In this document: in pieces, positions 1 through 36,380 of the stretch | How positions within the stretch are numbered: position 1 is the first letter of the stretch | Layout: the number at the start of each line of letters is the position of its first letter | Source of the DNA: Hydnum rufescens UP504 | Taxonomy: Eukaryota; Basidiomycota; Agaricomycetes; Cantharellales; Hydnaceae | NCBI GenBank assembly: GCA_014904985.1 | Contig: MU128961.1 | Coordinates: forward strand, 92,444 to 156,443 | DNA: 64,000 bases | Reading direction: 5' to 3' | Notes under the pieces: model-generated | Databases searched by the model: none | Seen by the model: the letters and a program-made list of their open reading frames with translations, nothing else | What the model was told of the DNA's origin: nothing | Program-made: the position numbers and the translations under genes

Positions 1-528
1 AGACAGAAGAGCAGACGATCTGGGATGTTCCTCTCGATCTTGGGTCTGGCCAGAACCCGCCCGAACCCCCGACCATAAACCCACGGAACGACACGCCGCG
101 AACGACCCCCACAAACGAAAACCACAGGGAGGACCTATACAACCCGCCGTACGTATGACCCGGAGTACAGGGCCTCAGTACCCGACACCCGCTGCAGCGG
201 GTGTGGGGTACTGCAAGGTCAGTTTTCTTTTCCTTTTTATTTTTTATTCTTGTGGCACAAAAAGAGCAGCGTAAGCTGCTCTTTTTGCACTGCATTACTG
301 TTCAACTAACCTTTCATTTTAAATTCCTCTAGATCCTGAACCCGAACTCGCGTACACCCCCAAGCGCCCATGAACAAAAATCCGCTCCCCCGAGGGAGCG
401 CCCAAATGGACCTGGCCCCGACCGGGGCATATGGACCCCACCCGCTGCGGTGGGTGTGGTGGGTATATGCAGGTGCGTGGCCTGCATGAACTATGCCCCC
501 CCCTGTGGTGGCAAACCCCAGGGGGGGG
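1..528 (+). repeat. DHA copy 1: rightward double-hairpin array (left end outside window)
   Basis: Exon-like and intron-like blocks alternate. The exon-like block ends in a palindrome at about 177-212 (CCCGACACCCGCTGC / GCAGCGGGTGTGGGG), followed at once by a splice-donor-like AAG|GTCAGT. The intron-like block carries an A-rich/T-rich hairpin and ends CTAAC...TCTAG. A second exon-like block (333-528) contains a second GGTGGGTGTGGTGGG-type hairpin and runs into an 11-G tract at 521-531. No sustained reading frame is seen. The segment from about 330 to 528 recurs inverted at 22878-23110, so it belongs to a dispersed family. Its function is unknown. Confidence 0.75.
218..332 (+). other. Intron-like DHA unit, 115 nt
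   Basis: The donor-like site is AAG|GTCAGT at 218. A perfect 13-bp stem follows (CAAAAAGAGCAGC at 258-270 pairing with GCTGCTCTTTTTG at 275-287, loop GTAA), then branch CTAAC at 306-310 and acceptor CCTCTAG ending at 332. Splicing is inferred only from these signals. Confidence 0.6.
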
Positions 529-793
529 GGGATAATATGTATATAGCGTAATATGTATATAATAATAGTAGTAATAATAATAATAATAATAAATAGTAAA
601 CAAACAATAGTAAATAAACAAATAATCTAGCACAGCCATGGATTGGCCGATAGATGGCCAAAAAAACTGAATTGGAATGGCTTGATTTCAGCCGAAAGGT
701 CTGGGGGACCTCTTAGGTACCATTTTCTGCCCCGAAAGTGGTACCTAAATTAGGTCCCCTATGTGACTGACCAGCCTGGGTTTGTATGGCCAT
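521..793. repeat. Right terminal region of DHA copy 1
   Basis: It contains a G tract, an AATAATAAT/AAATAAATAA tract, a pair of GGTACC-centred motifs (AGGTACCATTTTCTGCCCC and GAAAGTGGTACCTAAATT) and the outward end GTGACTGACCAGCCTGGG. The whole block recurs inverted at 17790-18062 with very few differences. The motif CTGACCAGCCTG also closes the other DHA copies at 4833-4853, 15190-15215 and 43405-43430, so I take it as an element end. No target-site duplication could be fixed. Confidence 0.65.
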
Positions 794-1477
794 TCTTGGG
801 CATGTTCTCACCTATCACAGTCATGTTGGTGGCATTTTCATTCATTGTTTTTTCATTTGTGTTTTCACCTCGTGTGTTACTGTTTGGGCTTTGGCTGTTC
901 ACATGCCTGTCATTGGGTGGGGTTCCACCTCATGCCCCAGATCAGGCCATGATCTAAGATAATAAATATTTGTTAGTAAACAAATTTAAAGCAGTGCAAA
1001 AAGAGCAGCTTTTGCTGCTCTTTTTGCACTGTTGTATCTGCTTCAATCAAAAAAAAACTCCCCTTACATGACCACACACCTGCTGCAGGTGTGTGGTCAT
1101 TGGCTTGCCTCTCTAGGCAGTTGCCTGTTCAGTTTGTGGCTGTGTAGAGAGCGCAACTCAACACTGGCAAATGCCAGCACTCAAAAAATGCCCAAGTCCT
1201 GTGGCCACAAGTACAATATAAATTAATAGCAAGCATCTAGACATGTTCTAAATACTAAATAATAAATATTTATCCAAAAATGAAAGAAGATGAAAATAAT
1301 AAGTCAGGGCTCAATAAGGCACAATATGCCTATCTTGCAAAGGGGATTAAACCATGTCTATAGGTCAGAATTGGCCCAAATTTAAATATATTGGTGGTAT
1401 ATGTGCACCCTACATGGGCAACTGATTATACTGGATGATCCTTTCATTTTTCAATTTTTCAGGCTTCAATTCCCTAT
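794..1477 (-). repeat. DHA copy 2, leftward-reading arm
   Basis: One clear unit is in minus orientation: exon-end hairpin CACACCTGCTGCAGGTGTG at about 1076-1096, a donor-like site read on the minus strand at 1067, an intron hairpin at 993-1030, and TTTACTAACAAA plus TTAG on the minus strand near 954-980. From about 1040 onward the arm mirrors the arm right of 1478, so the copy is a divergent pair of arms around a palindromic centre. Confidence 0.65.
954..1067 (-). other. Intron-like DHA unit, 114 nt
   Basis: On the minus strand: GTAAGG donor at 1067, a perfect 17-bp stem (993-1009 with 1014-1030, loop TTTT), TACTAAC branch and CTTAG acceptor at 954. This is one of the longest perfect stems in the family. 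Confidence 0.6.
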
Positions 1478-1798
1478 TTAGGGAATTGAAGGCATGAAAA
1501 ATTGAAAAATGAAAGGATCATCCAGTATAATCAGTTGCCCATGTAGGGTGCACATATACCACCAATATATTTAAATTTGGGCCAATTCTGACCTATAGAC
1601 ATGGTTTAATCCCCTTTTCAAGATAGGCATATTGTGCCTTATTGAGCCCTGACTTATTATTGTCATCTTCTTTCATTTTTGGATAAATATTTATTATTTA
1701 GTATTTAGAACATGTCTAGATGCTTGCTATTAATTTATATTGTGCTCATGGCCATGGGACTTGGGAACTTTTTGAGTGCTGGCATTTGCCAGCATTGA
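1157..1798. repeat. Near-perfect palindrome (~640 bp) at the centre of DHA copy 2
   Basis: The symmetry axis lies between 1477 and 1478, in TCCCTATTTAGGGA. Both arms carry the same series of words in mirror order, for example AAATATTTATCCAAAAATG on the left and its complement near 1680-1700, with a few substitutions (TTGCAAAGG versus TTTTCAAGA). Weaker symmetry continues into the flanking array units, from about 1040 to 1950. No reading frame is evident. Confidence 0.85.
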
Positions 1799-2231
1799 GT
1801 CACACTCTCCCTCCGAACTCCACAACCACAACAATCACAACAACCACCCAGAAAGGGAAGCAGGGTAACTGCCTGGAAAGGGAAGCAGACGACCACATGC
1901 CCACAGTGGCACCTGCCACTGTGGGCACATGGTCATGTAAGATGAGTTTCTTTTTTAATGTAGTACCTACAAGGGCACAAAAAGAGCAGCACCAGCTGCT
2001 CTTTTTGTGCTGCTTAGGATTTTTTTACTAACATATCTTCTATTATTCTAGATCATGACCTGGTCCCAAGGCATGGCAGGACTTGCCAAATGATGTGGGC
2101 CCAGATGGCAACACACCAAACAGAAATGGGAGAAACATGATGCAACACACAAGAACATGACACAAGAACATGCCCAATGAGTGGCCCAGAGACCACACAC
2201 CCACTGTGGCAGGTGTGTGGTAGTATATAAG

Positions 2232-2332
2232 GTGAGTTTCTGCTCAAGTAGATACAGCCACACAAAAAGAGCAGCTTTTGCTGCTCTTTTTGTGCTGGTT
2301 TTAATTTGTAACTAACATATCTGTTTTTCTAG
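2232..2332 (+). other. Intron-like DHA unit, 101 nt
   Basis: Donor TATAAG|GTGAGT, a perfect 15-bp stem 2261-2275/2280-2294 with a TTTT loop, AACTAAC branch at about 2309-2315 and acceptor TTTTTCTAG at 2332. This is one of the best consensus units. Confidence 0.65.
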
Positions 2333-2810
2333 GTGATCTGCTTGACCACCAATGAAGAAAATAATGAATGGAACAGACACCTGCCAAATGAACCCCAAGC
2401 CCCCTGAAACGACAGCCCACCACATGAACACATGCCAGACAGCAACCCACATACCAAAGGCCACATTCCCAATGAAAACCATGTGGGCGAGACCACCAGA
2501 TGACAGCACAAAATGATGCAGAGCCAACAAGTGGCCCCAGGAACCACACACCTGCTGCGGTGGGTGTGTGGTACCACAAGATAAGTTTTTTTTATGTTTT
2601 ATTCTTTTTGTGGCACAAGAAGAGCGGCATAAGCTGTTCTTCTTGCAATCTTTAATGTTTCACTAACATGTTTAATCTTCTAGCTTTTGGACTCACACCC
2701 ACATGAACCCCCAACCCAAACCTGCCAAGCAAAACCCACAACCATGACCCTGCCAAATGAAGACCCAGTGAGCAAAACCCTGCCCAAAGACACACCAAAT
2801 GACCCACCCC

Positions 2811-3656
2811 TGTCAGGGTGACACTGCCGTCGAAGCCACAAACAGAAAGAGGGAAGAGATTAATTAACCACACGCTATCACAGTGGGAATCCTGAGTATA
2901 CACCACACAACAAGGGACACACAAGTCTCGCACCTATCACAGTGGGAATCCTGAGAGATTGAAACTGGTGATCCCCAACTGCGAAGGGCTATAAATACTA
3001 TTTCCTGTACACAGCCTCCAGCCTTCCAGAGCCTTCCGCCATCTTCCATAACCTTCCGGATCCTCCTAGAATGCTGGCTCCACAGCCCATCAGTCAGCCT
3101 CCACAGCCACCATCACTAAGCCTCACTAAGCTGATGCAGCTGTGTTATGAATCCTGTGCACACCTCCACATGGCTATGCCCCAACTTCCATATGTATCCC
3201 CCTTAGCGTATGTACTTCCAAGGCAGTGTACGCCTGGGTACTCCAAAGGTGTCCAAAGTGTCAAATGACCGTAATGATGTGGATGGAGTACAGATTGGGA
3301 CAGGTGATGTGGATTCAGGGACTGGGGGTAGAGGAGGAGGAGGGGGAGTCTGGATTGGCAACTCCATGGACTCATGTGGGGAACGAGGGAACGACAGGTG
3401 CTGACAAGGGTGCCAATGCTGCCACTGGTTGACTACCCAGCCCATAGCCCGCTGGCTGAGGCCCAATAGAATGAGGGCAATAATAATAAGAGAAATGCCA
3501 ATAATGGCAAGGATGACAATAACCCCCATAGTGAATGGAGGGAGAGAGGAGACAAGAGCATTTGAGGAAGTAGGCGCCATATGATAGAGTCGATGAAGAA
3601 TGATACTCTGACAGGTAAGTCCTTAGGTGGAAGCAAATGTCAATTTGATCCTGACA
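2811..3656 (-). mobile_element. Solo LTR of a Gypsy-like element, TSD ACCCC
   Basis: The block runs TGTCAG...CTGACA and is flanked by ACCCC at 2806-2810 and 3657-3661, a 5-bp target-site duplication. Orientation is inferred from a doubled GGATTCCCACTGTGATAG-like word (here on the minus strand), which resembles the doubled GGATTTCCGCTTCC word in the LTR of the full-length Gypsy element at 30660. No internal retroelement sequence is attached. A second, rearranged copy lies at 6754-7659. Confidence 0.85.
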
Positions 3657-3794
3657 ACCCCCCCCCCCCCTTCCCATACAACATGATAAAGAAAACCACA
3701 AAAACATGACCAGCGTGACCATGACAGACAAAAACATGCACAGCAAATGGCAGCACAAACCACACCTGCTATGGCAGGTGTGGTTCTATATAAG

Positions 3795-3897
3795 GTGAGT
3801 CCCCCCCAATATATACAGTGGTGCAAAAAGAGCAGTGAAAGCTGCTCTTTTTGTGCTGCTTTGAATATTTTCACTAATGTATCTTTTATTACTCAAG
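3795..3897 (+). other. Intron-like DHA unit, 103 nt
   Basis: Donor TATAAG|GTGAGT, stem 3823-3855 (GCAAAAAGAGCAG / CTGCTCTTTTTGT), branch CACTAAT at 3872-3878 and acceptor CTCAAG at 3897. Confidence 0.55.
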
Positions 3898-4269
3898 ATC
3901 ATGGCCACAATGAAAACCTGCAAAACCCAAATGACAACATGCCAAACAGCAATGCATCAAATGAGCACACGACAGACAACAACATAACAGATGAGAACAT
4001 GCCCAGCAAGTGGCCCCAGGAACCACACCAGCCATGGTGGGTGTGGCCTATATACAGGGAGTCCCTGCCCCCAGTAGTGTATAGCTGTGCTGCTCTTTTG
4101 TGCTGCCTTTACTTCTTTACTGAACAACTTTTTTTTTCTATTAGGTCTCACCTTTCACATGAGCAAATACCAATGTGAGAACCCCATGACCCTGCATATC
4201 AAAACCCAGCTGACCATACATGGGGAATATAAAGTACCACACCCGCCACTGTGGGTGTGGTACTACAAG

Positions 4270-4369
4270 GTGAGTTTTTTTTTATTAATCCTGTGGTGCA
4301 AGAAGAGCAGCATAAGCTGCTCTTCTTGCAAAGCTTTATTGTCTAACATATTGTTTTCTTTTTTCCTAG
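4270..4369 (+). other. Intron-like DHA unit with a covaried stem, 100 nt
   Basis: Donor ACAAG|GTGAGT, stem GCAAGAAGAGCAGC / GCTGCTCTTCTTGC, branch TCTAAC and acceptor TTCCTAG. Against the common CAAAAAGAGCAGC stem, the A-to-G change in one strand is matched by T-to-C in the other, so pairing is kept. Confidence 0.6.
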
Positions 4370-4620
4370 ATCTTGGACTTGAATCTGCATGAACCCCCAA
4401 CCCCAAACCTGCCAAATGAACACCCAGTGAACAAAGATCTGGTGAGCCAAACCCCACAACCCACTCCACAACCCCAAACCTACCAAGCTGAACCCCACGA
4501 CCCCAAACCCAGGGAACCAAGCCAAACCCCCCACATGAAGGTGAGGTTTTTTCTTTGGCTGTGATTGCACAAGAAGAGCAGCCTCTGGCTGTTCTTCTTG
4601 GGTGCATGGGTGAGCCCACT

Positions 4621-4853
4621 GGGCAAGCCTATCATTGTATATAATAATAGTAGTAGTAATAATAATGATAAATAAATAAATAATCCATGGCTAGGGGCCC
4701 CAGGGGCCCCTGGGCTGCTTGACCAGCCCCCTTGATTGAATTGCAGGGGCCCCCGGGGGACCCCCAGGTCTGATATCTAGTTAGACCATATAAATGCAAC
4801 CTTTGAAGTATCTAATTAGATACTGATAATTGGCTGACCAGGCTGTTTGAATC
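4621..4853. repeat. Right terminal region of DHA copy 2
   Basis: Order of motifs: an AATAATAGTAGTAGTAATAA tract, palindromic GGGGCCCC blocks (about 4696-4765), the conserved word CTAGTTAGACCATATAAATG (about 4777-4797), and the end GGCTGACCAGGCTGTTTGAA. The same order is seen at 10795-10945, inverted at 15190-15350, and at 43096-43435. Confidence 0.7.
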
Positions 4854-6346
4854 AGGATCAACTTTGATTCCCATTACCATATCAGAATTGAATAGGGTTT
4901 TGAGCCCTGAGATTGACAGGTGGCCAAATCTCCAGTGGGCCTCTCCCCATGAGATCAGCACAGGACTCGATGATGCATAATTGGCTGCCTCGGTCATTCA
5001 CACTCATCCCTCCAATATATATGATGTATTGCATAATATTCCTTCCATTATGGTGTTGGAGGGATAAAACCCTACTACATATATTCTGCTTCAGGATCCA
5101 ACTACCTCCTCAAATGAATCCAATTTATTCAATTCCAATCCTTCAAATGCCTACCATTCCTTTGATTGCCATATGATGTGGATTTCAATTCTCCAAGACC
5201 CACTTTATTTCTCTTTCCTCCACCTTGTACACAAGACATTTATTTGTCCATCTCCAAGTCTTCAACAGACTACCTCAAATTGTAGTTACTTCAAGCCCAG
5301 CCAACTGTGGCTCAGGCAATTCAACTTGCCCTGTTTGTTTGGTACTCAATCCATTATGCATTGCTCATTGCCTCGGCAGGGATATACAAGTCCCAATTAT
5401 ATAATCAAGATTGCCTAATCCTTTGGATCCAACTCACGGATTAGTCACATGTTAAATAGGGGCTATTCACATACTCTCAAGGAGTATTTCGCAAATATCT
5501 CCCTCATTTTTGATAGGATCAACTCCGCAAGATAGTGCTCAGAAAGCTACGATCAATACCTATCCAACGGTACCACATACGCGTTTATCAGATGCGAACT
5601 GCATCCTCCAGATCGATTTTACCTCATGCTCCACACTATCCATCAGTATTTTGCGACTATCTCCACCAGTTTTGATCTGATTCATTAGTAATGACCACCC
5701 CTGGAAAGACGCTAAAGATCCGCATCGAATGGTACCAAGGGCAAAACGAGCGGATTAGAACTCGGCTTTCTGTAATTTAGTCTCCTCATGTCTCATTTCA
5801 CTTTTACCTCCGCTTTTCTGATTACTAAAGGCAATTATGGTTCCGGCACCCTATGTCCGATGGAGGGTACATCTAGGACGACCAGTTTCACCTTTCCCCA
5901 ATGGATTCTGTTCAGTAGGAGAGGAGGAATACCTTGGTTAAACCATATTCCCCTATTCTGACTTGTTAATTGAATATCTCCTTCAGTTTTGAAGCTTTTG
6001 ACTCAATCTCTTTTCATCATTTTCACCTTAACCCCACCTTTCTGCCGGTTACCATGGAATTATTCCAAGATGTATATTAAGTGCAGGGGATGCGAATTTT
6101 GATTGATTTTCCCCTCACCCTCAGTCTCTAAAGTCTTGAAGGACAGCTGTTGGCATCAGGGTGACTTCCAGAATACATCTAGTATTGTTCATGCTTTGGA
6201 TAGGCCCTCAAAAGGAGAGCCATCAGTGTGATTTCTGAATTAAATCCTCCGTTCATTCATTGTTAGAGCAAGCCTGCCCTAGCAAGACAATTTCTCAACA
6301 TCAAGGCCTTTCATTCAATTGGACCTTAACCTACAGATTGACTCCA
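4854..6346. repeat. Unclassified dispersed repeat C (about 1.4 kb)
   Basis: It has no convincing reading frame. It shares collinear similarity with the sequence between the two genes of the Harbinger element (about 45865-47250): both carry GGCAATTCAACTTGCC, a CTC[T/A]AAGGAGTATTT word followed by TCTC.CTCATTTTGAT, and a GAACGGTACCA...GAACGGATCAAAA motif. The last motif recurs as a diverged ~100-190 bp tandem motif here and in repeat B. Confidence 0.5.
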
Positions 6347-6753
6347 TTGTGGAAGATAAAAACATCCAGTATCAGAAAATGCAAAATCACACCACTTCCA
6401 GCCTTTGGACAATCACATGACCAATTACGAAATTAATTACAGCTACGTGCGGAAATCGAATTCGTTCTATAACTCCGTCAGTTTTGATCGGAGAGGTACG
6501 CCCATATAACGCTTAGAAAGCTACGATTCACACCTTTCGAACGGTACCAAACACAAGTCGAACGGACCAAAACTGCACTCTCCAGGCCAGTTTTACTACC
6601 AAAATCCAGAATTTCCAGTAAAAAACGAATTTATCCGTCAGTTCGCATTCAATCCTTTCGGAACAACTGCGCATAGAAAGATATAAAAAATCCGCATCCG
6701 ACGGTACTGAGCACGCGAAGAACAGATCAAAACTGAGCTCTACAGAACGATAT
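6347..6753. repeat. Unclassified dispersed repeat B, copy 1 (truncated)
   Basis: It starts GGAAGATAAAAACATCCAGT and matches 17256-17650 along its length; a 72-bp piece of the same start recurs at 7321-7392. It contains two diverged copies of a CCGTCAGTTTTGATC...TCGAACGGTACC...CAAAACTG motif. No protein is evident. Confidence 0.6.
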
Positions 6754-7320
6754 GTTCCCTTTCTCCCCACATGAGTCCATGCAGTTGCCAATCCAGACTC
6801 CCCCTCCTCCTCCTCTGCCCCCAGTCCCTGAATCCACATCACCTGTCCCAATCCGTACTCCATCCACATCATTACAGTCCTTCGACACTTTGGACACCTT
6901 TGGAGTACCCAGGCATACACTGCCTTGGAAGTACATTCACTAAGGGGATACATATGGAAGTTGGGGCATAGCCATGTGGAGGTGTGCACAGGATTCGTAA
7001 CACAGCTGCATCAGCTTAGTGAGGCTTAGTGATGGTGGGTGTGGAGGCTGACTGATGGACTGTGGAGCCGGCACTCTAGGAGGATCCAGAAGGTTATGGA
7101 AGCTGGCAGAAGGCTCTGGAAGGTTGCAGGCTGTGTGCAGGAAATAGTATTATAAGCCCTTCGCAGTTGGGGATCACCAGTTTCAATCTCTCAGGATTCC
7201 CACTGTGATAGGTGCGGACTTGTGTGTCCCTTTTGTGTGGTGTATACTCAGGATTCCCACTGCGATAGCATGTGTTAATTAATCTCTTTCCTCTTTCTGT
7301 TTGTGGCTTCGACGGGTGGG
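6754..7320 (+). mobile_element. Inverted fragment of the 2811-type LTR
   Basis: This is the reverse complement of about 2825-3390 of the solo LTR, ending GGCTTCGACGG. The missing U3-side part of the same LTR is found in the opposite orientation at 7397-7659. The LTR has therefore been broken and one part inverted, with a repeat-B piece (7321-7392) between the parts. A TATTATAAG word at about 7147-7155 fits an LTR core promoter. Confidence 0.7.
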
Positions 7321-7396
7321 AAGATAAAACATCCAGTATCAGAAAAAGCGAAATTACACAACTTCCAGCCATTGGACGATCACAGACCGATTATGG

Positions 7397-7659
7397 ACAG
7401 GTGCTGACAAGGGCACCAATGCTGCCACTGGTTGACTACCCAGCCCATAGCCTGCTGGCCGAGGCCCGATAGAACGAGGGCAATAATAATAAGAGAAATG
7501 CCAATAATGGCAAGGATGACAATAACCCCCTTAGTGAATGGAGGGAGAGAGGAGACAAGAGCATTTGAGGAAGTAGGTGCCATATGATAGAGTCAATGCA
7601 GAATGATACTCCAATGGGTAAGTCCTTAAGTGGAAGCAAATGTCAATTTGATCCTGACA
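7397..7659 (-). mobile_element. U3-side fragment of the 2811-type LTR
   Basis: It aligns in the same orientation with 3393-3656, including the shared end GATCCTGACA at 7650-7659. It abuts the truncated Copia at 7660, so the Copia lost its reverse transcriptase half before or during this insertion or rearrangement. Confidence 0.7.
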
Positions 7660-7756
7660 GTGCAGTCTCCATTGATGTTGCAGGTCTCTGCTGTTGGGCT
7701 GGCACAATTTGCTTAGTTGACTTTGGGTTGTCCAGTTTACAGTAATTGACCTCATT

Positions 7757-8890
7757 TCATGCTTGGGTAGAATGGATTGCTGGAGGTGGCTGCATTGTTT
7801 TAGGGATTTTGGGGGGTACATTTGGTGTCATTGCTACAGTGTCTGCTGGGGCTTGGACAGGTATGTGAGTGTCCTCTTTTGTACTCTCCCCCTCACTTGC
7901 AGCTGGCTTTACTGATGGCACACTCATCTCCACCAGTTCTCCAATCCTGAACTCAACAAAGCTCGCATTGGATCCCTTGTGTTCCTCAAATGTGAAGTCC
8001 CTTGACACCTGGATTCTCCTGGTTGTTGGGCTATAGTATCTGACTGCATGGGGTCCATCTTCAAATCCAATGAATATGAATTTGTTGGCCTTGGGATCAA
8101 GCTTTGATCTGTCACCAGTATCTAGGATCCAGACATCACATCCGAATTCACAAAGGTGAGTGACATTGGGTTTCTGTCCCATCCAGGCCTCATATGGGGT
8201 ATGGTTGGTCAATGCTTGGGTTGCCACATGGTTACGTATGTATGAGGCATATTTCACTACCTCAGCCCATAGGAATGGGGGCAGATCCCATGCAATTAGC
8301 ATTGTGCATGTGAGTTCTATTAGAGTATGGTTCAGCTGCTCAGCTATACCATGTTGCTCTGGTGAATAGGGGGCTGTGGATTGGATGTCAATCCCTTGCT
8401 CAGCACACCATGCCTTCAACTCCTTGGTGAAGTATTCAGACCCATTGTCAAAGTGAAGGTATTTTGGCTTTCAACCAATGTGAGTCTCGATCCATGCAAC
8501 ATAGTTTTTAACCTCACATACTGCTTCAGATTTCTCTTTCAGGAACATGACTGTATTTTGCCTTGTCACATCATCCGTAAATGAGATGTAATATCTGCTT
8601 CCCCCTAGGGACTTGGTGTGTGTGGGTCCCCACAGGTCTGAGTATGTGAGATTACCTGGGGAATGGCTCCATTCAGCTGTTTCTTTTGGAAACAACTTCT
8701 GATGTGCCTTCCCTTGTATACAGGCTGTGCAGTTTATACTGAGTTTGTATTTAGGATTGACAATGAGTCTGTTAATGATGCCTGAATTGGCAAGATGTTT
8801 GAGGCCAGATACTGAGATGTGACCAAATCAGTGATGTATTTTGTCCCACAAGTTCTGTTTCCCTTCCATCACTGATCTTGCATGTTCACC
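7757..8890 (-). pseudogene. Copia GAG-pre-integrase and integrase (broken)
   Basis: The GAG-pre-integrase zinc motif reads HH*FGHIS: the usual Arg of HHRFGH is TGA at 8828-8830, exactly a CGA-to-TGA change. It is followed by C-x2-C (NCTACIQ). The integrase core follows with YSDLWGP, GGSRYYISFTDD and, after a short frame break near 8420-8470, YSPEQHGIAEQLNHTL. The family normally has AERLNRTL there; both Arg-to-Gln and Arg-to-His are CG-to-CA changes. The fold would insert the element's cDNA, but the copy cannot be functional. Confidence 0.85.
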
Positions 8891-8926
8891 CATGAGTTTT
8901 GCCTTTGCATTTAGCAGATAGACCTT

Positions 8927-9493
8927 TCAGGAAAGCTTCCCTTGGGCTACCTTTGTGCCATTTGCTTGGCTTATGTGCGCATTGCCCTGGTTGAAGGTGA
9001 CTGAACTGCCTTGTTCGTCAACCTTACTAACTGACATTAGGCAATTGAGGGCTGATGGGGCATACATGACATCACATAATTGGATTGGGATTGTGTGTCC
9101 ATTTATGTTCAAGAGTAGGGTTACAGTCCCATGTCCAAGTGATTCGAGGCACATGGCTTCACCTATGCCTCTGATGGATTCATGTTTTGGGGTGAACTCA
9201 CTGAACATCTCTCAGACAGTAGCAATGTGGGAGCTGGTTCTGGAGTTGAGCAACCAATTGGTTTTGCTGAAGGTTGGAGTGGGGCGAGTGAGGTATGCAA
9301 CATCAGGCAGGCTCTCTGTGACTTGTTTTGCTGTTTCTGAGTTCTCCGCCTTGTTTTTTGCATCCTCCTGTTTCTTCTTCTCCCACTTTTTCTGGAATGG
9401 CCCTTGGCCTTCCTTCCCTCCCCCTTTCAACCAACAGTCTGCCTTCCAGTGGCCTGGCCATTTGTAGTTCTCACATGTTGGGCTGGTACTCAT
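8927..9493 (-). pseudogene. Copia nucleocapsid and protease (inactivated)
   Basis: A zinc-knuckle-like CENYKWPGHWKADC (about 9440-9485) is followed by a lysine-rich linker and a protease motif reading WLLNSRTSSHIATV at 9214-9258. The family normally reads LLDSGASSH, so Asp, Gly and Ala have become Asn, Arg and Thr, each explained by one G-to-A transition. The catalytic Asp is lost. The downstream block (8927-9208) carries the YAPSALNCLMSVSKV motif usual after Copia protease. Confidence 0.8.
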
Positions 9494-9574
9494 TATGGGA
9501 TCTGTTTGCTTCCCTCTGGGTGCACTGGTATTCAGGTTGGTGACTTCAGCAGCATCAGTCTGTTCTCTGCAGCA

Positions 9575-10195
9575 TCAATCTTCCTCCATCAGGATGGAAA
9601 TGAGCTCACTAGAGTTGACATTGAGACTTAAGCTCACACTCACAATTGAGCCAAATAACCTGCTAGTGAATTGATCCCATGATTCAGATAACAATGTGAT
9701 GAGCAGGAGAGAGAAATCTTCATCAGTCATGGCATGTCCCATGTTGGCCATTTGCTCCTGGGCCTGCCTGAAGGCTGCAATGTGTTCCTCCATCCAAGTG
9801 CCTTCCTCCATTGTCACACAGAATAGCCTTTTTTGGGCCACAAGGACAGCACATGTGCTTTTCAGTCCCTTGATTGTATGAAGCTGTGACCAGATTTCAG
9901 CAGCAGTCTTTGCACCCTTGGTGTGATTCAGTTCCGAGCCTGAGATTAATATAAGGAGGAGCACTCAGGCCTCTTGGTCTTTTGCATCCCACTCCCTCTG
10001 GATTCTCTGTGCTTCGGTAACTGCTGGATTGTTAGGGGATCTGGATTCAGGTATTGCAGGGCAGGGTATTGTGCCATCCATGTACCCAAGGAGACTGGAA
10101 AGTACCATGAGACTGGAGACATGGGTTTTCCATTCATACCAGTTGGTAGTGTCTAATTGCTTTAGCCATAGGAAGCTTGCTGACAGAGACGACAT
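9575..10195 (-). pseudogene. Copia gag capsid-like region
   Basis: The likely start is the ATG at 10195, reading MSSLSASFLWLKQLDTTNWYEW, the usual N-terminal LDxxNWxxW motif of Copia gag. The continuation includes AAEIWSQLHTI, HIAAFRQAQEQMANMG and LLSESWDQF, as in the UBN2/gag family. The frame breaks near 9965. It would form the capsid of a retrotransposon particle. Confidence 0.8.
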
Positions 10196-10794
10196 AGATG
10201 GAAATTTTTAAATGAATGTGTGTATTTGTGAATGAATGAGTCCTAATCTGCCCTTCCACTAGTGAGATGGGCCCATAACCTATTGAGGCTATGGCAGGAG
10301 AGGACCTGGGAGCTATCCCAGCAAGCAGATTTAAGGACAGATTTATCAGATGGATGAAACTGTAACAAACGGAACTAGCTGGTATATTAGGTAATTAGTA
10401 ATGAATGAATGGGGTGCAGGTTGGTTCCCTCAACAAGGTATGCATGCTTTGAGGTCATCAGAGTATGCTCATGGCATGGAGGTAGTAGGTAGTACAGCAG
10501 CAGAGCCTTGACAGAAACACTACCCATGGTGGGATGAATGAGATGAATGAGTACCAGATCAAGACTATCAATCAGATCTGGATTTTTTTTTTTCTTCACC
10601 ACAGTTTTTTTTTCACAGAAGCTTTTTTTTCCCACCTACATTTTTTTGCATAGTCCACACTCATATGCAAACAGCTGTAAGGGCTTCCCATTCCTACTCA
10701 GCCTGAGTACCCAATCACTCCCCCTGACCCTTAACACCAGGACCTATCCTGATACCCCCTCTTATATGACTTCTCCCTGGTCATTTTCTAAGTT
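10196..10794. other. No gene seen; probable Copia leader and LTR remnant plus DHA debris
   Basis: There is no sustained coding potential. Immediately upstream of Copia gag (10200-10365), leader or LTR sequence would be expected, but no paired LTR or clear tRNA-complementary primer site was found. T-rich runs and CACAGT words at 10585-10660 resemble degraded DHA sequence. Confidence 0.4.
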
Positions 10795-10945
10795 CAGAGC
10801 CAGGGACCCCTGGGGGCCCCTGCCTGAACCATGGAAATCACCCCAGCTGGCCCTGGGGGCCCCAGCATCAAAACCTCTAGTTAGACTATATAAATGCAAG
10901 GCTCATAATATATAACTAGACCTACATTTGTGGCTGACTGAGTTG
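10795..10945. repeat. DHA terminal region, isolated copy
   Basis: It contains GGGGGCCCC blocks, then CTAGTTAGACTATATAAATG, then GTGGCTGACTGAG, in the order of the other right-hand DHA termini. It runs directly into the palindrome starting at 10946. Confidence 0.6.
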
Positions 10946-12183
10946 GAGCAAGATCTGAATAAGGCAATATAATATGACACTAAACAGGGGATTGTATAAA
11001 TCAGAGTGCCCCTAAAATTGAATATTGAGGCCATATATATATATATATGTACTATGTGGTGGATACCTTAAAATGGACATCAGATATCTCCAGAGGCGTG
11101 TAAGAGTATAATTTCCTTATTTGGGTATGTGTATTTCCTCATTCATTCAGCCACATCCTAGTATTAGAGCCTATAAATTGGCAATTGGAACTTGATCCAG
11201 TATTTCCATGAAAATGTTTTTTTTTCATAATTTTTAAGGCAAATGCTATGTCATGAGTTTCACATAATCACTTCTGGTCAATAACTCCAAGTAGAATCAC
11301 CAACTACTCTGATTGTGTGGAACTTGTGACATAGCATTTGCATTAAAAATTATGAAAAAAATACACTTTTGTTGGCATACTGGATCAAGTTCCAATCACC
11401 AATTTATAGGCTCTAATACTAGGATGTGGCTGGATGGATGAGGAAATACACATACCCAAATAAGGAAATTATACTCTTACACACCTCTGGAGATATCTGA
11501 CATCCATTTTAAGGTATCCACCATGTAGTATATATATATATATGGCCTCAATATTCAATTTTAGGGCATTCTTGTAATGAAGTGCCTCCCAGATTCAGGA
11601 GGGCACTCATTGTTGTACTTGGACAAAGTGGAGTCGACAGGTTGGGAGCAGGAATGAGGGGAAGGGGAGAAGAGGTAATCACACTGCCCTCAGCACTGGC
11701 TTTGGACAGAGGAGCTGGACACAGAGCTAAGCACTGGCTTTGCTCTGAGTCCAGGGGAAAAGAGTGCAAGGGAGTGGGGGTCATGGCAAAAGGCATAAAG
11801 TAGTGATTGGCCAAGTGGCACAGTCACTATCTAAGGAGAGGATGGGGGATCAGTGAGAGGAAGGACTGTCCTACTCACTACTTTCCTGCTAGGGTCCAGA
11901 GGTGTTACTCCCAGACTAGGAAAGGCCTAGTATTAGTGGCTACTAGACAGGCCAACCAGATAGACAAGTAGAAGCAGAGACAGAAGCAGGTTTCACAGTT
12001 TCTCACTAGGTGATAAAGATCTGGGCAAAGGTTCACTCTTTTATTCCATGGAATCTGCCATATATACATGACTTTTGAGTCCTAACTTAATTATGTAATA
12101 CACTATATTACAATTCTGATTTATGCAGGCAATCCAATCCCCTGTTTAGTGTCATAATATATTGCCTTATTCTGATCTTGCTC
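10946..12183. repeat. Foldback/MITE-like palindrome interrupted by a solo LTR
   Basis: The arms 10946-11262 and 11321-12183 are inverted copies once the LTR at 11573-12112 is removed. Shared words include GAGCAAGATC at both outer ends, AATATGACACTAAACAGGGG, GGATACCTTAAAATGGA and GCAAATGCTATGTCA near the ~58-nt loop. Single mismatches are scattered. No protein is encoded. No outer target-site duplication was resolved. Confidence 0.8.
11573..12112 (-). mobile_element. Solo LTR of the outer chromovirus family, TSD ATTCT
   Basis: It begins TGTAATGA and ends TATATTACA, like the LTRs at 23872 and 42195, and shares their order of words (GGAGTCGA, CTCAGCACT, GGGAAAAGAGTG, CTATCTAAGGAGAG, GGGCAA). 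ATTCT flanks it at 11568-11572 and 12113-12117. It is much more diverged and CpG-poor, so it is an older insertion than the element at 23872. Strand follows the orientation of the full-length copy. Confidence 0.85.
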
Positions 12184-12625
12184 ATTCTTGTCTTTTTCTT
12201 CAATATTACTACCAGAATAACTATAAAATAAATATCATGCATAATCTTTTTAGTACTCAGGCTGGGACACTGCAATGTGGTGTCTTTTATGCCAGACATT
12301 CAGTGCTTTTTTAATTTTGCACTTGCCAGCATTGAGTCATGGCTTCCTCCAATGCCTGATTATGGCCTACAGCAACCTGTCAAGTGTGAGTGAGCACCAC
12401 ACCCCAGTGATGATGCTGGGTGTGGTGAATAAGGTACAATTTTTCTTTAGTTTTGTGCCAAAGGAGCTGTTCCAAGCTGTTCCTTTTGCACCCTTTCATT
12501 ATTTACTAATATCTTGAGTTCTTTTCATCATAGGGATGATCACTCAAGCCCACCACCCCCTGCACATCAAATGACAATGACAATGATATGACAATCCTAT
12601 CATCATTGTTGCACATGATGCTGGA
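12184..12625 (+). repeat. DHA subfamily 2 array, left part
   Basis: It contains an exon-end hairpin ACCACACCCCAGTGATGATG / CTGGGTGTGGT, the donor-like ATAAG|GTACAA, an intron hairpin CCAAAGGAGCTG / AGCTGTTCCTTTTG (12460-12493), branch TACTAAT and acceptor ATCATAG near 12534. The following exon-like block is interrupted by the hAT element, whose TSD is ATGCTGGA. Confidence 0.65.
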
Positions 12626-14138
12626 TAGGGCTCCTGACAGGTCAGGTTTGGGTTGGGTCAGGTCAAACCTGCACCAGTCACCATTGCCTACAGGCCCAAC
12701 CCATACCTGCAGGTCATGACCTGAAAACCTGAAGGTTGATCTGCAGGTTTCTCATGTGGTAGCACCTGTAGTATAAACACATATGACCCAGCACATAAAC
12801 CCCTCTTATTGTGTAATTATGGGTAAGGGAGTCTAATTACATGCCTCAGGATCCAGATATTAACATACTCCTCATCAGCATTAGTTTTTGAATCATATCT
12901 GCCTTAAGAAATGCATGACAGAGTGAAATTACATCCCAACCAATATTCAGTGAGCACTCCACACTAATGGAGGACCCTATGGGAATAAATGAGGAGCATG
13001 CCTATCAGTAGGTGAATTGTCCACACCTAGGATGGCTAAGAAATTATGAGCAGCTCATGTGAGGACAGGATAATTGTATTTATTTGTCTTCCAGAACACA
13101 AGGGGATCACTGTCCATGGGGATTTGAGCTTCCAAAAAGATAGGGCCCAAGTCCTTGACTTGGGGTCCTGTAGGTGCCTTGAGTTTTGAGCTTGGGAAAA
13201 AGTATATCCATTCCATCAAAAAGAGCCAAGAATGTGCTTGTTCTGGATCGAGTAGGCTCAGACATGATGATTACATCCATGTGTGCCCAGGGTTGCCCAT
13301 TGAGACCCTTCTAACCAATAAGGTTGCTTCAGAGCCACCTGAGCCCATATTCCCAGACCTGTGGATGACCTGCAGGTCTGCAGGTCAGGACCCACAGGTC
13401 AAGAATTCCTTAGGGGAGGAGGAGGAGGAGGAATTCTAGTTTATATACTGCAGTAGGCTCCCAAGGGTCCAAGAGTGGTCCAAATACATGACGAGTCAGT
13501 ACCTGAGAGTTAATCTAATGTTTCAATCAGAGTATTGTGAAGGGGGTGAGTGAAGGGGTGTGGATTCAGCAGTGTGCAGGTGTGATCTGAGATGGGTGAG
13601 ACAATGAGAGAGAGCCATGGGAACATATTAAAAAGGGACAGGCATATAAAGATTTAATCAAAGTGAAACAGCACACCTGGTGGGATGCCAGGTTGTTCGC
13701 ACATATGAATGCTGACAGGGGGCGAACACTTGTAGGAGTGGTGGCAGACAGTCCCTTCAGTTGTGGAGGTGGAGGAGAAAATGGTAGGAGAGAAAGGTGA
13801 ACAGTTCCATCCCAATATCGTATCTAGTGCATCAGCATTACCCATATATCTTGGGAGGTGGGCAGATGTTAGGATAGTGTGGGTTTACATCTTTGAAAAA
13901 GCCCCCAAGGCCTCGATAAAGGCCGCAAGGTGTATGTTACCATCCATCGTTCCCAAAAGTTTTGCTGTGTTGCAGTCTTGGTCAGTGTCTCTGAGTAGGT
14001 GGCGATGACCCTCATGCAGCATGCATGATTGTAGGTCATGTTCGCAGGTCTGTAATTCCTTAGGGGCCAACCCCAACCCACAACCTGCAACCCAACTGGG
14101 AAGGTGACCTGCATTGACCCAACCTGTCAGGAGCCCTA
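12626..14138. mobile_element. Non-autonomous hAT element, TSD ATGCTGGA
   Basis: Terminal inverted repeats TAGGGCTCCTGACAGGT begin at 12626 and end at 14138. Identical 8-bp duplications ATGCTGGA lie at 12618-12625 and 14139-14146. A TAGGG start plus 8-bp TSD is diagnostic of hAT transposons, and the subterminal GGGTTGGGTCAGG words fit too. The 1513-bp interior has no recognisable transposase (no BED finger, no hAT dimerisation motif in the short frames present), so mobility would need a transposase supplied in trans. Confidence 0.85.
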
Positions 14139-14532
14139 ATGCTGGATCTTCTATATCCTGTGCAACCAAAGCAACCAACAGAAAAACACCCCAAATAGGT
14201 CATCACACCCCAGCCTCACTGGGGTGTGATCATAAGGCACATATATTAATGCATACATCTCCTCTTGCAAGAGTGGGGCAGCTTTCAGCTGCCCCTTCTG
14301 TGCAGCCTTATTTTTACTAATACATTGAGCTGTCTTCATTGTAGGGACTATTTCATCCACCGAACCACTCCCCACATGTCAAACATCAATCAAGGCTGTA
14401 TTGTCACTGTCAATGAAGACAATGCAGTCATCTGCACAATTACTAGTCTTATGCCCCCATGCAGCTGAAGAACCCAATGAGTCACCATGAGAAAGACACC
14501 ACATCCCAGCCTTGCTGGGATGTGGTGATGAG

Positions 14533-14640
14533 GTATGTGTTATATATGTATGTCACCTTTTTCAAAGAGGGCAGCTCTTAAGCTGCCCTTTTTGCATTCC
14601 TTTGATTCTTTACTAACCATTCAGACTTGTTTCATTACAG
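14533..14640 (+). other. Intron-like DHA subfamily 2 unit, 108 nt
   Basis: Donor GATGAG|GTATGT, hairpin centred near 14580, branch TTTACTAAC and acceptor TTTCATTACAG at 14640. Confidence 0.6.
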
Positions 14641-14798
14641 GGTCTCTCTCTACTTCCCACCCTCCTCACATGCTTCAAATGACAAATGATGATCCCATTG
14701 TCATCATGGGCAATGTGGGTCATATGACCTCAGGAACCAGCAATAAAGCACCTGAAACAGGAAACCACACCCCAGCTTTGCTGGGGTGTGGTAATAAG

Positions 14799-14902
14799 GT
14801 GAGTTTATTCATCCTTCATCTTGTCTTGTGCAAAAAGGGCAACTTCAGGCTGCCCTTTTTGTGCCACTTTAATCACATACTAATACTTTGTTTTCATTTC
14901 AG
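14799..14902 (+). other. Intron-like DHA subfamily 2 unit, 104 nt
   Basis: Donor AATAAG|GTGAGT, stem GCAAAAAGGGCA / TGCCCTTTTTGT, branch ATACTAAT and acceptor TTTCATTTCAG at 14902. Confidence 0.6.
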
Positions 14903-15189
14903 GGACTATCACTACCCTCCTCCCCCACTTCAAATGATGACAACAGTGGCAATTCTGTCATTGTCATTATGAATGACTGTGGATCTTATGACCCTGTATG
15001 ACCAAAGATCCCAATGATCCAAACCACCTGCATGATAAGCAGGACACCACACCCCATCATTGCTGGAGACCACAATGATACAAAGGTAACTTCAAGTTCA
15101 AGTGAGGACTTAGACACCAGTGGAGACCAATAGACACCACCATGAATGGCAGAGTAATTACAAGTTTAATTGAAGACTTGGACACTGTT

Positions 15190-15350
15190 AGTTCTGTTGT
15201 ATCTGAACAGGCTGGTCAGCCACTTTTCCACATCATATTAGATATCATGAGCCTTGCATTTATTGATCTAACAAGATGTTTATACCAGGGGGCCCCTGGG
15301 GGCCCCTGCCAAATCATTATTTATTAATTTATTATTATTGTTATTATATT
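15190..15350. repeat. Left terminal region of DHA copy 3
   Basis: This is an inverted version of the right-hand terminus: the outer end GAACAGGCTGGTCAGCCAC, a CCTTGCATTTATTGATCTAA word (complement of the TATATAAATGCAAGG motif), GGGGGCCCC blocks near 15287-15310 and an ATTATTATTG tract. The leftward-reading array starts just inside it. Confidence 0.65.
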
Positions 15351-15569
15351 AGTATATACATCCATCAGCTCACCCCATACCCAAGAAGAGCAGCCAGAGG
15401 CTGCTCTTCTTTCACAATTATAGCTAAAAGAAAAAAAGACTTACCTAAAGGGGATACTTACCTCCACCCCAGTTGGGGGTGCCATTCACTGGTTTCATCA
15501 TGGGTTTTGTTCATGGCATGTCATTCAGTGGGTTTGTGGTCAGGGGTTGTGCAGGTTCTGCTACAAGAT

Positions 15570-15668
15570 CTAGATAAATAAATAATAGATTAGTTGGATA
15601 TTAATTCAGCGCAAAAGAGCAGCTTACAAGAATATAAAAATAAAAATAAAAATAAAAATAACACTTAC
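15570..15668 (-). other. Intron-like DHA unit, 99 nt
   Basis: On the minus strand: CCAG|GTAAGT donor at 15668, an AAATAAAAATAAA tract, a degenerate GCAAAAGAGCAGC half-stem, CAACTAAT branch and ATCTAG acceptor at 15570. The stem partner is mostly replaced by the repeat tract. Confidence 0.5.
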
Positions 15669-15779
15669 CTGGTAGTACCCACACCTGCTTCAGGGGGTGT
15701 GGGGTACTGGGCTGGTGGGTGGGTTGATGGGTTGATTTGGGTGGGTGTGTGTTTGTGCATTGGGGTTGGACACCCCAAC

Positions 15780-15882
15780 CTAGAATGGAGAACAATATGT
15801 TAGTTAAAATCAAAAGTTGCACAAAGAGAGCAGTGACTACTGCTCTCTTTGTGCATTAATAGCTACTAATAAATATACATAC
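15780..15882 (-). other. Intron-like DHA unit, 103 nt
   Basis: On the minus strand: ATATAAG|GTATGT donor at 15882, hairpin GCACAAAGAGAGCAGT / ACTGCTCTCTTTGTGC, a TTTAACTAAC branch and CTAG acceptor at 15780. Confidence 0.55.
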
Positions 15883-16470
15883 CTTATATAGCCACACACC
15901 CGCCACAGCAGGTGTGTGGCTCCCTGTTTCCCTGCTTGTCTTCTCCATGGCTTCCTGTGCATGTTGTTGTTCATTTGTTCATTTGTTGGCTTGTTCATTT
16001 CATCCCTGTACCATGTCATTCAGGTGTCAATGGGGGGGGTTATGGGGGTTCTCACATTGGTATTTGTTTGTGCAGGAAGTGATGACCTAGAATATAAGAT
16101 TATATATTAGTTAAGAGTTAAACAACATGCAAAAAGAGCAGCTTTTGCTGCTCTTTTTGCATGGCTGTAGGTAGTGGGGGGGAGGAACTCACCTGATATG
16201 GAACCACACACCTGCTGTGGTGGGTGTGTGATTCCTGGCATGTCATTTGATGTGGTCATGTCCTTGTTTGGCACATTGCTGTGTCACATTCCCATGCATT
16301 GCACTGCCATGTCACATTCCTGTTTGGGCTCTCATCATGCATTGGGTGAGGCCTCAATCTAAAATAAATAAAGGCACATTAGTAAAAAATTCCACAGCAA
16401 CACAAAAAGAGCAGCTTTTGCTGCTCTTTTTGTGCCATTGTATCTACTGGAAAAAAGACTCACCTTGTGA

Positions 16471-17255
16471 CCACACACCCACAGTAGCAGGTGTGTGGTT
16501 CTATACTTGGTATGTACCCCCAATGATGCAAAAAGAGCAGTGAAGCTGCTCTTTTTGTGTTGCTTTTAATTTTTTAACTAATAATATTTTATTTTAGGTA
16601 TCAGCACACATGAAGACCATGAAGAACCCCCCCAGAATGATAACACACCCACAAATGGGGTCTGGAAATGACAATGCACCACACGAAGAGACAAACCACA
16701 CACCCGCAGTAGTGGGTGTGTGGTTCTATACTTGTTGGTATGTAATGTACCCCCAATGATGCAAAAAGAGTAGTGAAAGCTGCTCTTTTTGCATCACTTT
16801 TAATTTTTAACTAATGATTTTTTATTCTAGGTATTGTCACAAATGAAGACCCATGAAGCAAGCCCCCCCTGAATGACAACACCCCCATGAATGACAATGC
16901 ACCACATGAAGAGAAGAGCCACACACCTGCAGTAGCAGGTGTGTGATTCTATACAAGGTATATAATAGTGCACCCCCCAATGATGCAAAAAGAGCTGCTC
17001 TTGCTGCTCTTTTTGTGTTCATTATAATTTTAATTTTTAACTAACACCTTACATTTATTCTAGGTTATTGCCTCAACCACCCACCACACAAACCCCCCCA
17101 TAGGAAATGACACCATGACTGGCCAAGCAAATGCCGAACAAAGCCCACCAACAATGACCAGCCAAGAGACACCCACCAGACAAAACCCAGGAATGGGGAC
17201 CCATGATGCAAGACCACAGAACCCCAAGACAAACCACACACCTGCCAAAGTGGTG
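16471..17255 (+). repeat. DHA copy 3, rightward-reading arm (truncated)
   Basis: The arm switches orientation at an exon-like palindrome around 16471-16500 that has a donor-like site on each strand, so it is a divergent centre. Units have intron hairpins at 16528-16560, 16760-16792 and 16984-17018. The last exon-like block ends abruptly at repeat B (17256), so the right terminus is lost. Confidence 0.7.
16510..16597 (+). other. Intron-like DHA unit, 88 nt
   Basis: Donor ACTTG|GTATGT, stem GCAAAAAGAGCAG / GCTGCTCTTTTTG, branch AACTAAT and acceptor TTTATTTTAG at 16597. Confidence 0.55.
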
Positions 17256-17789: not shown

Positions 17790-18062
17790 AGATACAAACC
17801 AGGCTGGTCAGTCACATAGGGGACCTAATTTAGGTACCACTTTCGGGCAGAAAATGGTACCTAAGAGGTCCCCCAGACCTTTCGGCCGAAATCAAGCCAT
17901 TCCAATTCAGTTTTTTTGGCCATCTATCGGCCAATCCATGGCTGTGCTAGATTATTTGTTTATTTACTATTGTTTGTTTACTATTTATTATTATTATTAT
18001 TATTATTATTACTACTATTATTATATACATATTACGCTATATACATATTATCCCCCCCCCCC
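17790..18062. repeat. Left terminal region of DHA copy 4
   Basis: This is an inverted near-copy of 521-793, starting GATACAAACCAGGCTGGTCA and ending in an 11-C tract (18052-18062). In the inverted copy (1-531) the G tract joins directly to CAAACCCCA; here the matching TGGGGTTTG appears only at 22878, after the low-quality block and gap. It pairs with the right terminus near 43405-43430 (shared CAGATACAAACCAG). Confidence 0.65.
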
Positions 18063-18302
18063 GGACCAACGGTACAAAACCAAAGGACCACAACCCACTT
18101 CGTGTGGTGTGTCCTACAATGTTTTTTTTCTTGTATTTTTATCTATATTGTACAACGACTGCAAAAAGGAGCAGCGGCAAAAAAGCTGCTCCCTTTGCGT
18201 CCAACTTTTGAATTTTTTTACTAATTGAGAGTCCAAAACTGGAAAGCCACGCCAAAAGAAAAAAACCCGTACGAAATGCACACAAAAAACCCTGGCTGAA
18301 CG

Positions 18303-18348
<46 letters not shown>

Positions 18349-21890: not shown

Positions 21891-22267
21891 CCTGTATCCC
21901 CCATCTCCTCACTACTGGAATATACTACTGTCTACAAATCTGCTTGCATCTGAAGAGAGTACTAATCTAAACCATCTGGAGCTAAGTCATATACAAGGTT
22001 GTTAAGACTAAGTCACTGGAAGCCCTCTATGCAAAATACTAAGCCAAGGATAGTTGCAGGACCTAAGGTTAGAGTTGCTGGACATCCAAGGAAAGGTGAG
22101 TAATAACAAAGTCAAGTCAGAAGAAGAAAGAAACACATTGACACACTGAATCAAGCTTAAACTAGTCTAGAACCTCTTTAGAATCTGCATTTTGCCCAGG
22201 AGGACACAAATAGGTACACACAAATAGCAGTAAACAGTCCAATACAACACATATAAGCCTTTCATGA
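21891..22267. other. Ordinary-quality unique sequence, no gene seen
   Basis: About 380 bp of normal composition between the homopolymer block and the gap. There is no long frame, no hairpin unit and no terminal motif. Confidence 0.5.
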
Positions 22268-24435: not shown

Positions 24436-24467
24436 GTGCCCCCAGCATGGGACCTAAGATTCGTAGT

Positions 24468-31272: not shown

Positions 31273-31350
31273 GAAGACCAAAGCTCTTTCACGAGCCCAC
31301 CATCCGGATTGCTTAGTATCGCTGATTTCCCTCCTACCCCTCATTCCGAA

Positions 31351-36300: not shown

Positions 36301-36380
36301 CGGGTTCAAGGAACAACGTATTTACAAGGAGGAAAGAAAAAGGAAAAAAGGAGGAGTGGAAGACAGAACAACAGCTCGGA

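Follow-up and report, generated by a model that had tools for sequence, protein, structure and literature searches.

Introduction

Foldback elements, such as Drosophila FB and Galileo, have long inverted arms with tandem sub-repeats around a centre, and a non-autonomous DNA transposon with terminal inverted repeats (TIRs) and long inverted arms is already known as a container. Here we describe a TIR transposon family from the ectomycorrhizal hedgehog mushroom Hydnum rufescens UP504 (Cantharellales), starting from a stretch of 64,000 nucleotides, hereafter the window (contig MU128961.1, C53 in our numbering, 92444-156443), of its 63.2-Mb assembly in 539 contigs. The family differs from foldback elements in that its sub-repeats are spliceable exon/intron units with two hairpins, which read outward and whose splice sites appear to have been selected. 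Introners and the symmetrical stwintrons of fungi are also multi-copy related introns with inverted-repeat features, but there the mobile unit is an intron within genes, whereas in Hydnum the introns sit inside a larger transposon that is flanked by target duplications of its own.

The ends of the element recall the KDZ superfamily, in which Zisupton and Dileera are described with 8-bp target duplications and Kyakuja with 7-bp duplications and 5'-CA..TG-3' termini (PMC12730594). Unlike these, the Hydnum element has no internal transposase and its body consists of exon/intron units; it also has terminal repeats, whereas the Kyakuja families, in the passages of that source used here, are described without them. 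Intron-based discrimination between self and non-self, by HUSH in mammals and SCANR in Cryptococcus, offers a reason why a transposon might profit from introns or efficient splicing (PMC8770142, PMC5851062, as far as the portions consulted go), although these are host defence systems, unlike the Hydnum transposon. In the open-licence literature searched we found no description of an element built of outward-reading spliceable units with two covarying hairpins under splicing selection. Our results suggest that the family is probably a non-autonomous TIR transposon making, as its cargo, a spliced non-coding RNA kept by selection, possibly allowing escape from surveillance.

Results

The units in the window are pieces of several copies of one family of TIR DNA transposons. 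The original prediction, made from the letters of the window, had correctly seen arrays of units and had missed that these are the two arms of a transposon with target duplications. We extended the sample to loci L020-L040 of the same genome (L030-L032 consist of N throughout), where an intact copy was found in L040 (C289:14601-19300). It measures 4,700 bp (302-5001 of the locus), has CA...TG ends with homologous terminal repeats, and stands between the two copies of a perfect 8-bp duplication, CACACAGT at both sides. Among the young copies of the family are this one and C1:370210-375518. Perfect flanks of 8 bp are also shared by the two sides of a full copy in L020 (about 4211-9519; GGTTACCA) and of C6:358666-364202 (CCCAAATC). 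Two ends in the window, a left one at 15207 and a right one at 43421, have the common perfect 8-bp flank TATCTGAA, and therefore one 28-kb nested copy covers most of that interval. At L021 (5745-6199) ends of types a and b abut opposite sides of a single 8-bp site within an element, ATGAAAAC preceding end a and its reverse complement preceding end b, so that this element was apparently inserted into itself. A c/d pair of a sister subfamily in L024 has a 7-bp duplication, GATGTTC. The ends fall into subfamilies a-f with the common motif CA....GTCAGYCA, and the end pattern has 1,793 matches genome-wide against 8 for its control. LTR retrotransposons are recognised by direct long terminal repeats (LTRs) with reverse transcriptase, and Helitrons by the lack of a target duplication, a 3' hairpin and a CTRR end; both classes were ruled out by the inverted ends, the 8-bp duplications, the CA..TG termini and the lack of a long open reading frame (ORF).

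The centre of the element is a long palindrome, from which two arms of exon/intron units diverge. At all 16 ends for which a unit was scored no more than 1.5 kb inside, the nearest one reads outward (15 separate units, since two L022 ends have one in common), while the units just outside ends, which belong to neighbouring copies, read towards them in 6 cases and away in 3. In L040 the arms terminate in AATAAA-rich sequence. Each unit consists, in order, of a T-poor exon, usually with a hairpin at its end, a donor, an intron with its own hairpin, a branch site and an acceptor (consensus AAG/GTRAGT, ACTAAY and mostly TCTAG). The geometry is narrow: introns have a median length of 105 nt (interquartile range, IQR, 101-109), with 46 nt from donor to hairpin centre (IQR 43-48) and 38 nt from there to the branch A (IQR 37-39). 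The median intron hairpin measures 40 nt, and most have a loop of 4 nt on a stem of about 16 bp or longer.

Scanning the window by script, we confirmed the shared plan of the units and obtained 20 family intron hairpins on both strands (22 rows, of which 2, at about 19.9 and 40.6 kb, were spurious); two more were recognised by eye at about 12455-12491 and 16984-17016. The GTRAGT donor that had been proposed with this plan is not uniform in these copies. Strict GTRAGT follows from the scan in 7 of the 20 cases, or 8 if the hairpin at 14831-14861, misoriented by the scan, is read by eye; the remaining donors are GTATGT, GTCAGT, GTAAGA, GC, or lost, and many copies are decayed. Among the 164 hairpins with full flanks in the window and L020-L040, donor, branch site and acceptor accompany 98, in one orientation only at 97 and in both at 1, and the other 66 have them in neither; with shuffled flanks 293 of 6,560 trials were positive (4.5% per orientation). 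The splice signals of these 98 units must be read knowing that the units were picked for bearing them. An exon hairpin with at least 9 paired bases precedes the donor in 68 of the 98, against 2 of 98 after shuffling. Conversely, when introns were located without the intron hairpin, from an exon hairpin followed by donor, branch site and acceptor, 54 of 58 carried the family hairpin, the other 4 resembling false positives, and in 53 of 58 the best intron hairpin beat all 20 of its own shuffles.

These patterns are abundant and directional. The palindromic intron-hairpin pattern, allowing up to 3 mismatches, has 6,408 genome-wide matches on each strand (reversed control: 0), and 1,606 places on the two strands combined match an exon-hairpin arm with GTRAGT after it (control: 2). 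The ordered pattern of donor, hairpin and CTAAY matches 1,935 times, against 0 for the reversed pattern, a count that includes double counting at some places (2 of 100 among the matches listed). In the 237,665 bases of sampled loci, with 123 hairpins (246 when both strands are counted), wrong-strand decoys, in which either the donor or the branch site was antisense, gave 0 and 0 matches, against 56 for the true pattern. The exact intron-hairpin pattern had 0 matches in viral contigs, and Rfam had 0 matches at the gathering threshold in the window.

Thousands of intron copies on one plan might suggest that the hairpin intron is itself mobile and spreads into host genes, leaving the arrays as a by-product, much as introns with inverted-repeat symmetry have reportedly spread in the Hypoxylaceae. 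We regard this as highly improbable. The duplications flank the whole two-armed element and not the intron, the exon hairpins move together with the introns, and the matches listed are mostly clustered, though some stand alone. Furthermore, the standard pattern found 0 hairpins in a small control of 50 kb of unselected sequence (L033 and L036-L039, chosen regardless of hairpins; three other such loci were all N), where a looser pattern gave one intron-type match in L033 and one exon-type match in L036. We thus rejected membership in the introner class because the unit of insertion is the whole element, the hairpin control being small.

The main evidence that the RNA of the units was spliced during their divergence comes from the conservation of their core signals. 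We aligned nine L040 introns to other copies at no more than 86% identity, which gave 105 alignments, some to related copies. The donor GT was kept at 201/210 positions (95.7%), the purine at +3 at 105/105 (100%), +4A and +5G at 198/210 (94.3%) and +6T at 104/105 (99.0%); the branch T and A were kept at 205/210 (97.6%), the acceptor Y at 100/105 (95.2%) and the acceptor AG at 206/210 (98.1%). In comparison, the rest of the introns kept 4182/5865 positions (71.3%), exon bodies 75-76%, the intron hairpin 84.6% and the exon hairpin stretch 82.0%, which leaves the core splice signals (94-100%) as the best-conserved class measured. From this we strongly infer that the RNA was spliced while the subfamilies diverged, and that splicing was then under purifying selection. 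The original prediction had named donors and acceptors unconserved relative to the hairpins across the genome as the finding that would speak against it; this is contradicted by the conservation and by the 1,935 ordered matches against 0. Its wider suggestion of spliceable units making a multi-intron non-coding RNA with structured exons gains support from the conserved core, the one-way orientation and the lack of a coding signal.

Both hairpins also covary. The intron-hairpin alignment comprised 63 of 69 non-redundant sequences (6 were dropped because, with a 4-nt loop, they paired at fewer than 12 of 16 positions) and showed changes on both sides at 16 of 18 pairs, in 82 cells against 28.3 when shuffled. 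The exon-hairpin alignment, with the 50 of 69 that had at least 10 of 13 pairs, showed them at 10 of 15 pairs, in 60 cells against 23.2. Since hairpins were selected for pairing, the percentage paired is inflated, and the both-side changes are less affected. Covariation supports conserved palindromes and falls short of proving a function in RNA, because correction of palindromes at the DNA level could also make paired changes. An anticorrelation between stem length and gap to the donor (rho -0.64) is a trivial consequence of the fixed distance from loop to junction and was not used.

Such correction matters for a reading in which both palindromes act as DNA, as transposase-binding or cruciform subterminal repeats of a foldback- or CACTA-like element, and the splice signals are relics of a captured host intron. 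Subterminal repeats are frequent in non-autonomous DNA transposons, the arms lie as inverted arrays on the two sides of a palindrome, and palindrome correction alone could yield the paired stem changes. Yet binding repeats need neither a conserved splice core nor an outward orientation, and both tell against this explanation: the core positions exceed not only the 71% background but also the two hairpins, and the nearest unit points outward at every scored end. We consider it unlikely.

The exons do not look coding. In 48 internal exons (bodies without the last 48 nt; at least 2 of the longest hold an intron with a GTATGT donor that the search skipped) T amounts to 12.1% and A+C to 66.2%, and cryptic GTRAG occurs 4 times, against 7.9 in shuffles. 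That introns with canonical signals separate the exons is what one would expect if the transposon held a multi-exon protein gene, decayed or captured, or a tandem host gene family. However, the exon lengths modulo 3 are 20/14/14, a frame is open in 22 of 48 exons against 36.7% in shuffles, and the longest ORF over the correctly spliced L040 arms has 145 aa and, in a protein search, no homologue at E 0.001. We rejected the protein-coding reading on these grounds, and a protein gene in any of these forms is scarcely credible.

A third possibility is that the excised hairpin introns or the structured exons are precursors of silencing or regulatory small RNAs, as the original prediction had proposed for the introns. 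The thousands of hairpins in the genome would fit, as would matches to the Piwi domain at several loci, some with stops. Nevertheless, hairpins of this size (median 40 nt, loop mostly 4 nt, stem about 16 bp or longer) make short substrates for Dicer, Dicer products need no conserved splice signals, and the related sense strands made from both arms would presumably not pair as long double-stranded RNA. The proposal that the introns feed RNA silencing is thus unsupported, and we hold small RNAs to be a very unlikely purpose of the units.

The map of the window follows from this structure. The units occur on both strands, as had been reported for the first 17 kb, but instead of a single array we find several nested or truncated transposon copies. 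The further units noted at 22878-23866 and 42766-43095 are real and flank an 18.9-kb LTR retrotransposon on either side. The features are as follows (positions in the window).

176-332, plus strand: unit; exon-end hairpin 176-213; intron 218-332 with donor GTCAGT, hairpin 258-287 and branch ACTAAC.
764-778, minus strand: transposon end of type c, CAGGCTGGTCAGTCA read inward; right end of a copy whose plus-strand arm occupies about 1-490.
940-2065, no strand: palindrome at the middle of copy 2 (centre about 1502), with 81% identity to its own reverse complement; includes the first unit of each arm and is presumed to be a divergent promoter.
954-1100, minus strand: left-arm unit of copy 2; exon hairpin 1100-1068, intron hairpin 1033-990; donor apparently decayed.
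1898-2051, plus strand: unit; exon hairpin 1898-1927, intron 1937-2051, intron hairpin 1974-2011.
2191-2332, plus strand: unit; exon hairpin about 2191-2222 (by eye), intron 2232-2332 (GTGAGT, hairpin 2261-2294).
2543-2683, plus strand: unit with decayed donor; exon hairpin about 2543-2573 (by eye), intron hairpin 2616-2645, acceptor 2683.
3758-3897, plus strand: unit; exon hairpin 3758-3785, intron 3795-3897 (GTGAGT, hairpin 3815-3862).
4233-4369, plus strand: unit; exon hairpin 4233-4264, intron 4270-4369 (GTGAGT, hairpin 4297-4330).
4541-4604, plus strand: terminal hairpin of the arm, AAGAAGAGCAGC type; branch site not found; then AATAAATAAATAAT.
4831-4845, minus strand: right end of copy 2, type a, CAGCCTGGTCAGCCA.
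12397-12533, plus strand: unit of another subfamily; exon hairpin about 12397-12428, intron 12434-12533; by eye.
14202-14343, plus strand: unit; CCCCAGC-type exon hairpin, GC donor (by eye), intron hairpin 14273-14297.
14495-14640, plus strand: unit; exon hairpin 14495-14529, intron 14533-14640 (GTATGT; acceptor by eye).
14763-14902, plus strand: unit; exon hairpin about 14763-14792, intron 14799-14902 (GTGAGT); by eye.
15208-15222, plus strand: left end of the 28-kb copy, CAGGCTGGTCAGCCA; outer flank TATCTGAA, the same as that of the right end at 43421.
15383-16499, minus strand: left arm of the 28-kb copy; terminal hairpin 15411-15383 (donor 15444).
15878-15780, 16192-16087 and 16463-16359, minus strand: introns of this left arm.
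15923-15888 and 16499-16470, minus strand: exon hairpins of this left arm.
16510-17063, plus strand: right-pointing units; introns 16510-16597, 16738-16830 and 16958-17063, with GTATRT donors; first and third by eye.
17800-17814, plus strand: end of type c of a further copy, to which the minus-strand units at 22878-23200 probably belong.
23110-23181, minus strand: unit; intron hairpin 23181-23156, acceptor 23110.
23667-23771, plus strand: intron; GTAAGT, hairpin 23699-23728, ACTAAC.
42803-43075, plus strand: distal right-arm units, continuing the array split by the LTR element at 23872-42760; one intron here is decayed (hairpin 42866-42909), and more exon hairpins are seen by eye.
43407-43421, minus strand: right end of the 28-kb copy, CAAACCAGTCAGCCA; outer flank TATCTGAA.

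The LTR retrotransposon at 23872-42760 was inserted into a transposon copy and splits its array. Its LTRs (23872-24435 and 42195-42760) are 94% identical, with AGTAC on both sides, and it carries a reverse-transcriptase domain and other polyprotein-like ORFs. A Copia-like integrase remnant lies on the minus strand at 7396-10700; a 264-bp stretch at 3393 (3393-3656) repeats at 7396 with 94% identity and may be LTR sequence. A long palindrome, recognised by eye, occupies 10945-12180; it has a type-b end at 10945 and may mark the middle of one more, broken copy. Another inverted palindrome, of 4.5 kb (57247-61757), is 93% identical to its own reverse complement and borders on arrays of CTAGACATGA, a 10-bp satellite, and its variants. 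The interval 49111-52940 contains minus-strand ORFs that by eye resemble a NACHT/WD40 protein, and an array of 126-bp repeats with 78% identity. The window also has a Myb/SANT-like ORF with 76-87% identity to relatives in the same genome. The interval 18300-22877 is rich in A/T homopolymers (GC 31-33%) before turning into N from about 22268 to 22877, and the 30 kb directly upstream of the window (C53:62444-92443) are N throughout.

Neither the L040 element nor the L020 element contains an unspliced ORF of at least 220 aa. No transposase was found inside the elements by this measure in L040, and we therefore call the element non-autonomous. The genome has KDZ domains at at least 154 places and 90 matches to hAT dimerisation domains. 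Since hAT elements usually make 8-bp duplications (PMC12730594, in the part consulted), duplication size alone is compatible with both. KDZ appears to be the best candidate for the transposase, because the CA..TG ends fit it as well as the duplication size does, whereas hAT fits in size only. Among the KDZ places listed on C1-C6, 2 of 8 are within 3 kb of one of the first 100 ends listed, about as many as expected from a rough, hand-estimated chance level. We found no KDZ gene bearing the ends of the family, the one KDZ-containing end pair examined (on C2) having no duplication.

Discussion

Our results suggest that this very abundant transposon carries exon/intron arms and no protein genes. 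Each arm would be transcribed by Pol II from a start near the central palindrome to an end near the AATAAA-rich sequence, before the terminal repeat, and the host would splice the transcript into a multi-exon non-coding RNA; this much we infer strongly. What follows them is more tentative. A spliced RNA with a hairpin on the site of the exon junction complex (EJC) might pass as a host gene, as RNA or as locus, and such mimicry might allow escape from decay or from transcription-linked silencing. Transposition could then continue by means of a transposase supplied in trans, perhaps by KDZ.

The position of the exon hairpin raises the question of the EJC. Of the 98 units, 52 have an unbroken exon stem of at least 9; in these the centre of the exon-hairpin loop has a median position of -23.5 from the junction (IQR -25.5 to -21.5), and all 52 hairpins span -27 to -20. 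A 4-nt loop on a long stem would offer the EJC helicase little single-stranded RNA to land on, and therefore the exon hairpin may block or position the complex; speculatively, this could protect the non-coding RNA from decay. The mean unpaired probability over -27 to -20 in the 98 units is 0.52, against 0.60 elsewhere and 0.56 when shuffled. It is hardly lower because the loop lies there, and we do not claim plain inaccessibility. Matches to Mago exist in the genome. In human cells, crosslinks of the EJC in iCLIP peak at -24, according to the part of the source consulted (PMC6675937).

Precedents for a benefit from introns come from Cryptococcus, also a basidiomycete, where the excerpts consulted report that intron removal greatly lowers, in a cumulative way, the mRNA of most tested genes (PMC3744415) and that poorly spliced transposon RNAs enter RNA interference (PMC5851062). 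Cryptococcus introns can also act negatively, however (PMC3744415), and under HUSH in mammals the intron itself protects, even without splicing (PMC8770142; both as given in the parts consulted). The HUSH and Cryptococcus precedents therefore would not predict selection on splicing as such.

Several of our own observations also count against the proposed role of the element. The case for transcription and splicing of the arms comes from conservation, and within it three further positions of the branch motif were kept at only 82.9% (261/315). Recognisable splice sites are absent at 66 of the 164 hairpins, 30 of the 98 units lack an exon hairpin of at least 9 pairs, and the distal right-arm units of L040 have no GT donors. 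A protein search with the conceptual translation across the junctions gave nothing. L040 and L020 are 97.5% identical, and 91 of their 115 differences are at CpG; this decay suggests that the elements are probably methylated, contrary to a fully successful escape. As for mobility, a target duplication was present in 1 of 6 fetched end pairs (the b/a pair) and in none of the other five (three c/d, one d/d and one other), nor was there one at the KDZ-flanking pair on C2 or at the b/a ends 1504/5973 in L023. From these seven pairs without duplication it follows that adjacent ends often come from different or broken copies. Finally, KDZ domains are not clearly enriched beside ends in comparable parts of the match lists.

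A more ambitious version of this account is that the intron-dense non-coding cargo imitates host genes and needs splicing to spread, with a hairpin on the EJC site of most exons controlling or blocking EJC loading, and thereby decay, and the intron hairpin setting the geometry of the intron so that splicing is efficient; we put it forward as a doubtful, though attractive, idea. If our main account is right, selection has kept the splice signals of RNAs that encode nothing, in mobile DNA and at about 1,900 strict matches in one genome. The use of introns by transposons against the surveillance by which hosts tell themselves from invaders would then become testable, as would the tuning of EJC loading by structure at exon ends. 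The family also provides a large natural collection of introns that are related, nearly fixed in geometry and equipped with covarying hairpins, which is useful for the splicing biology of mushrooms.

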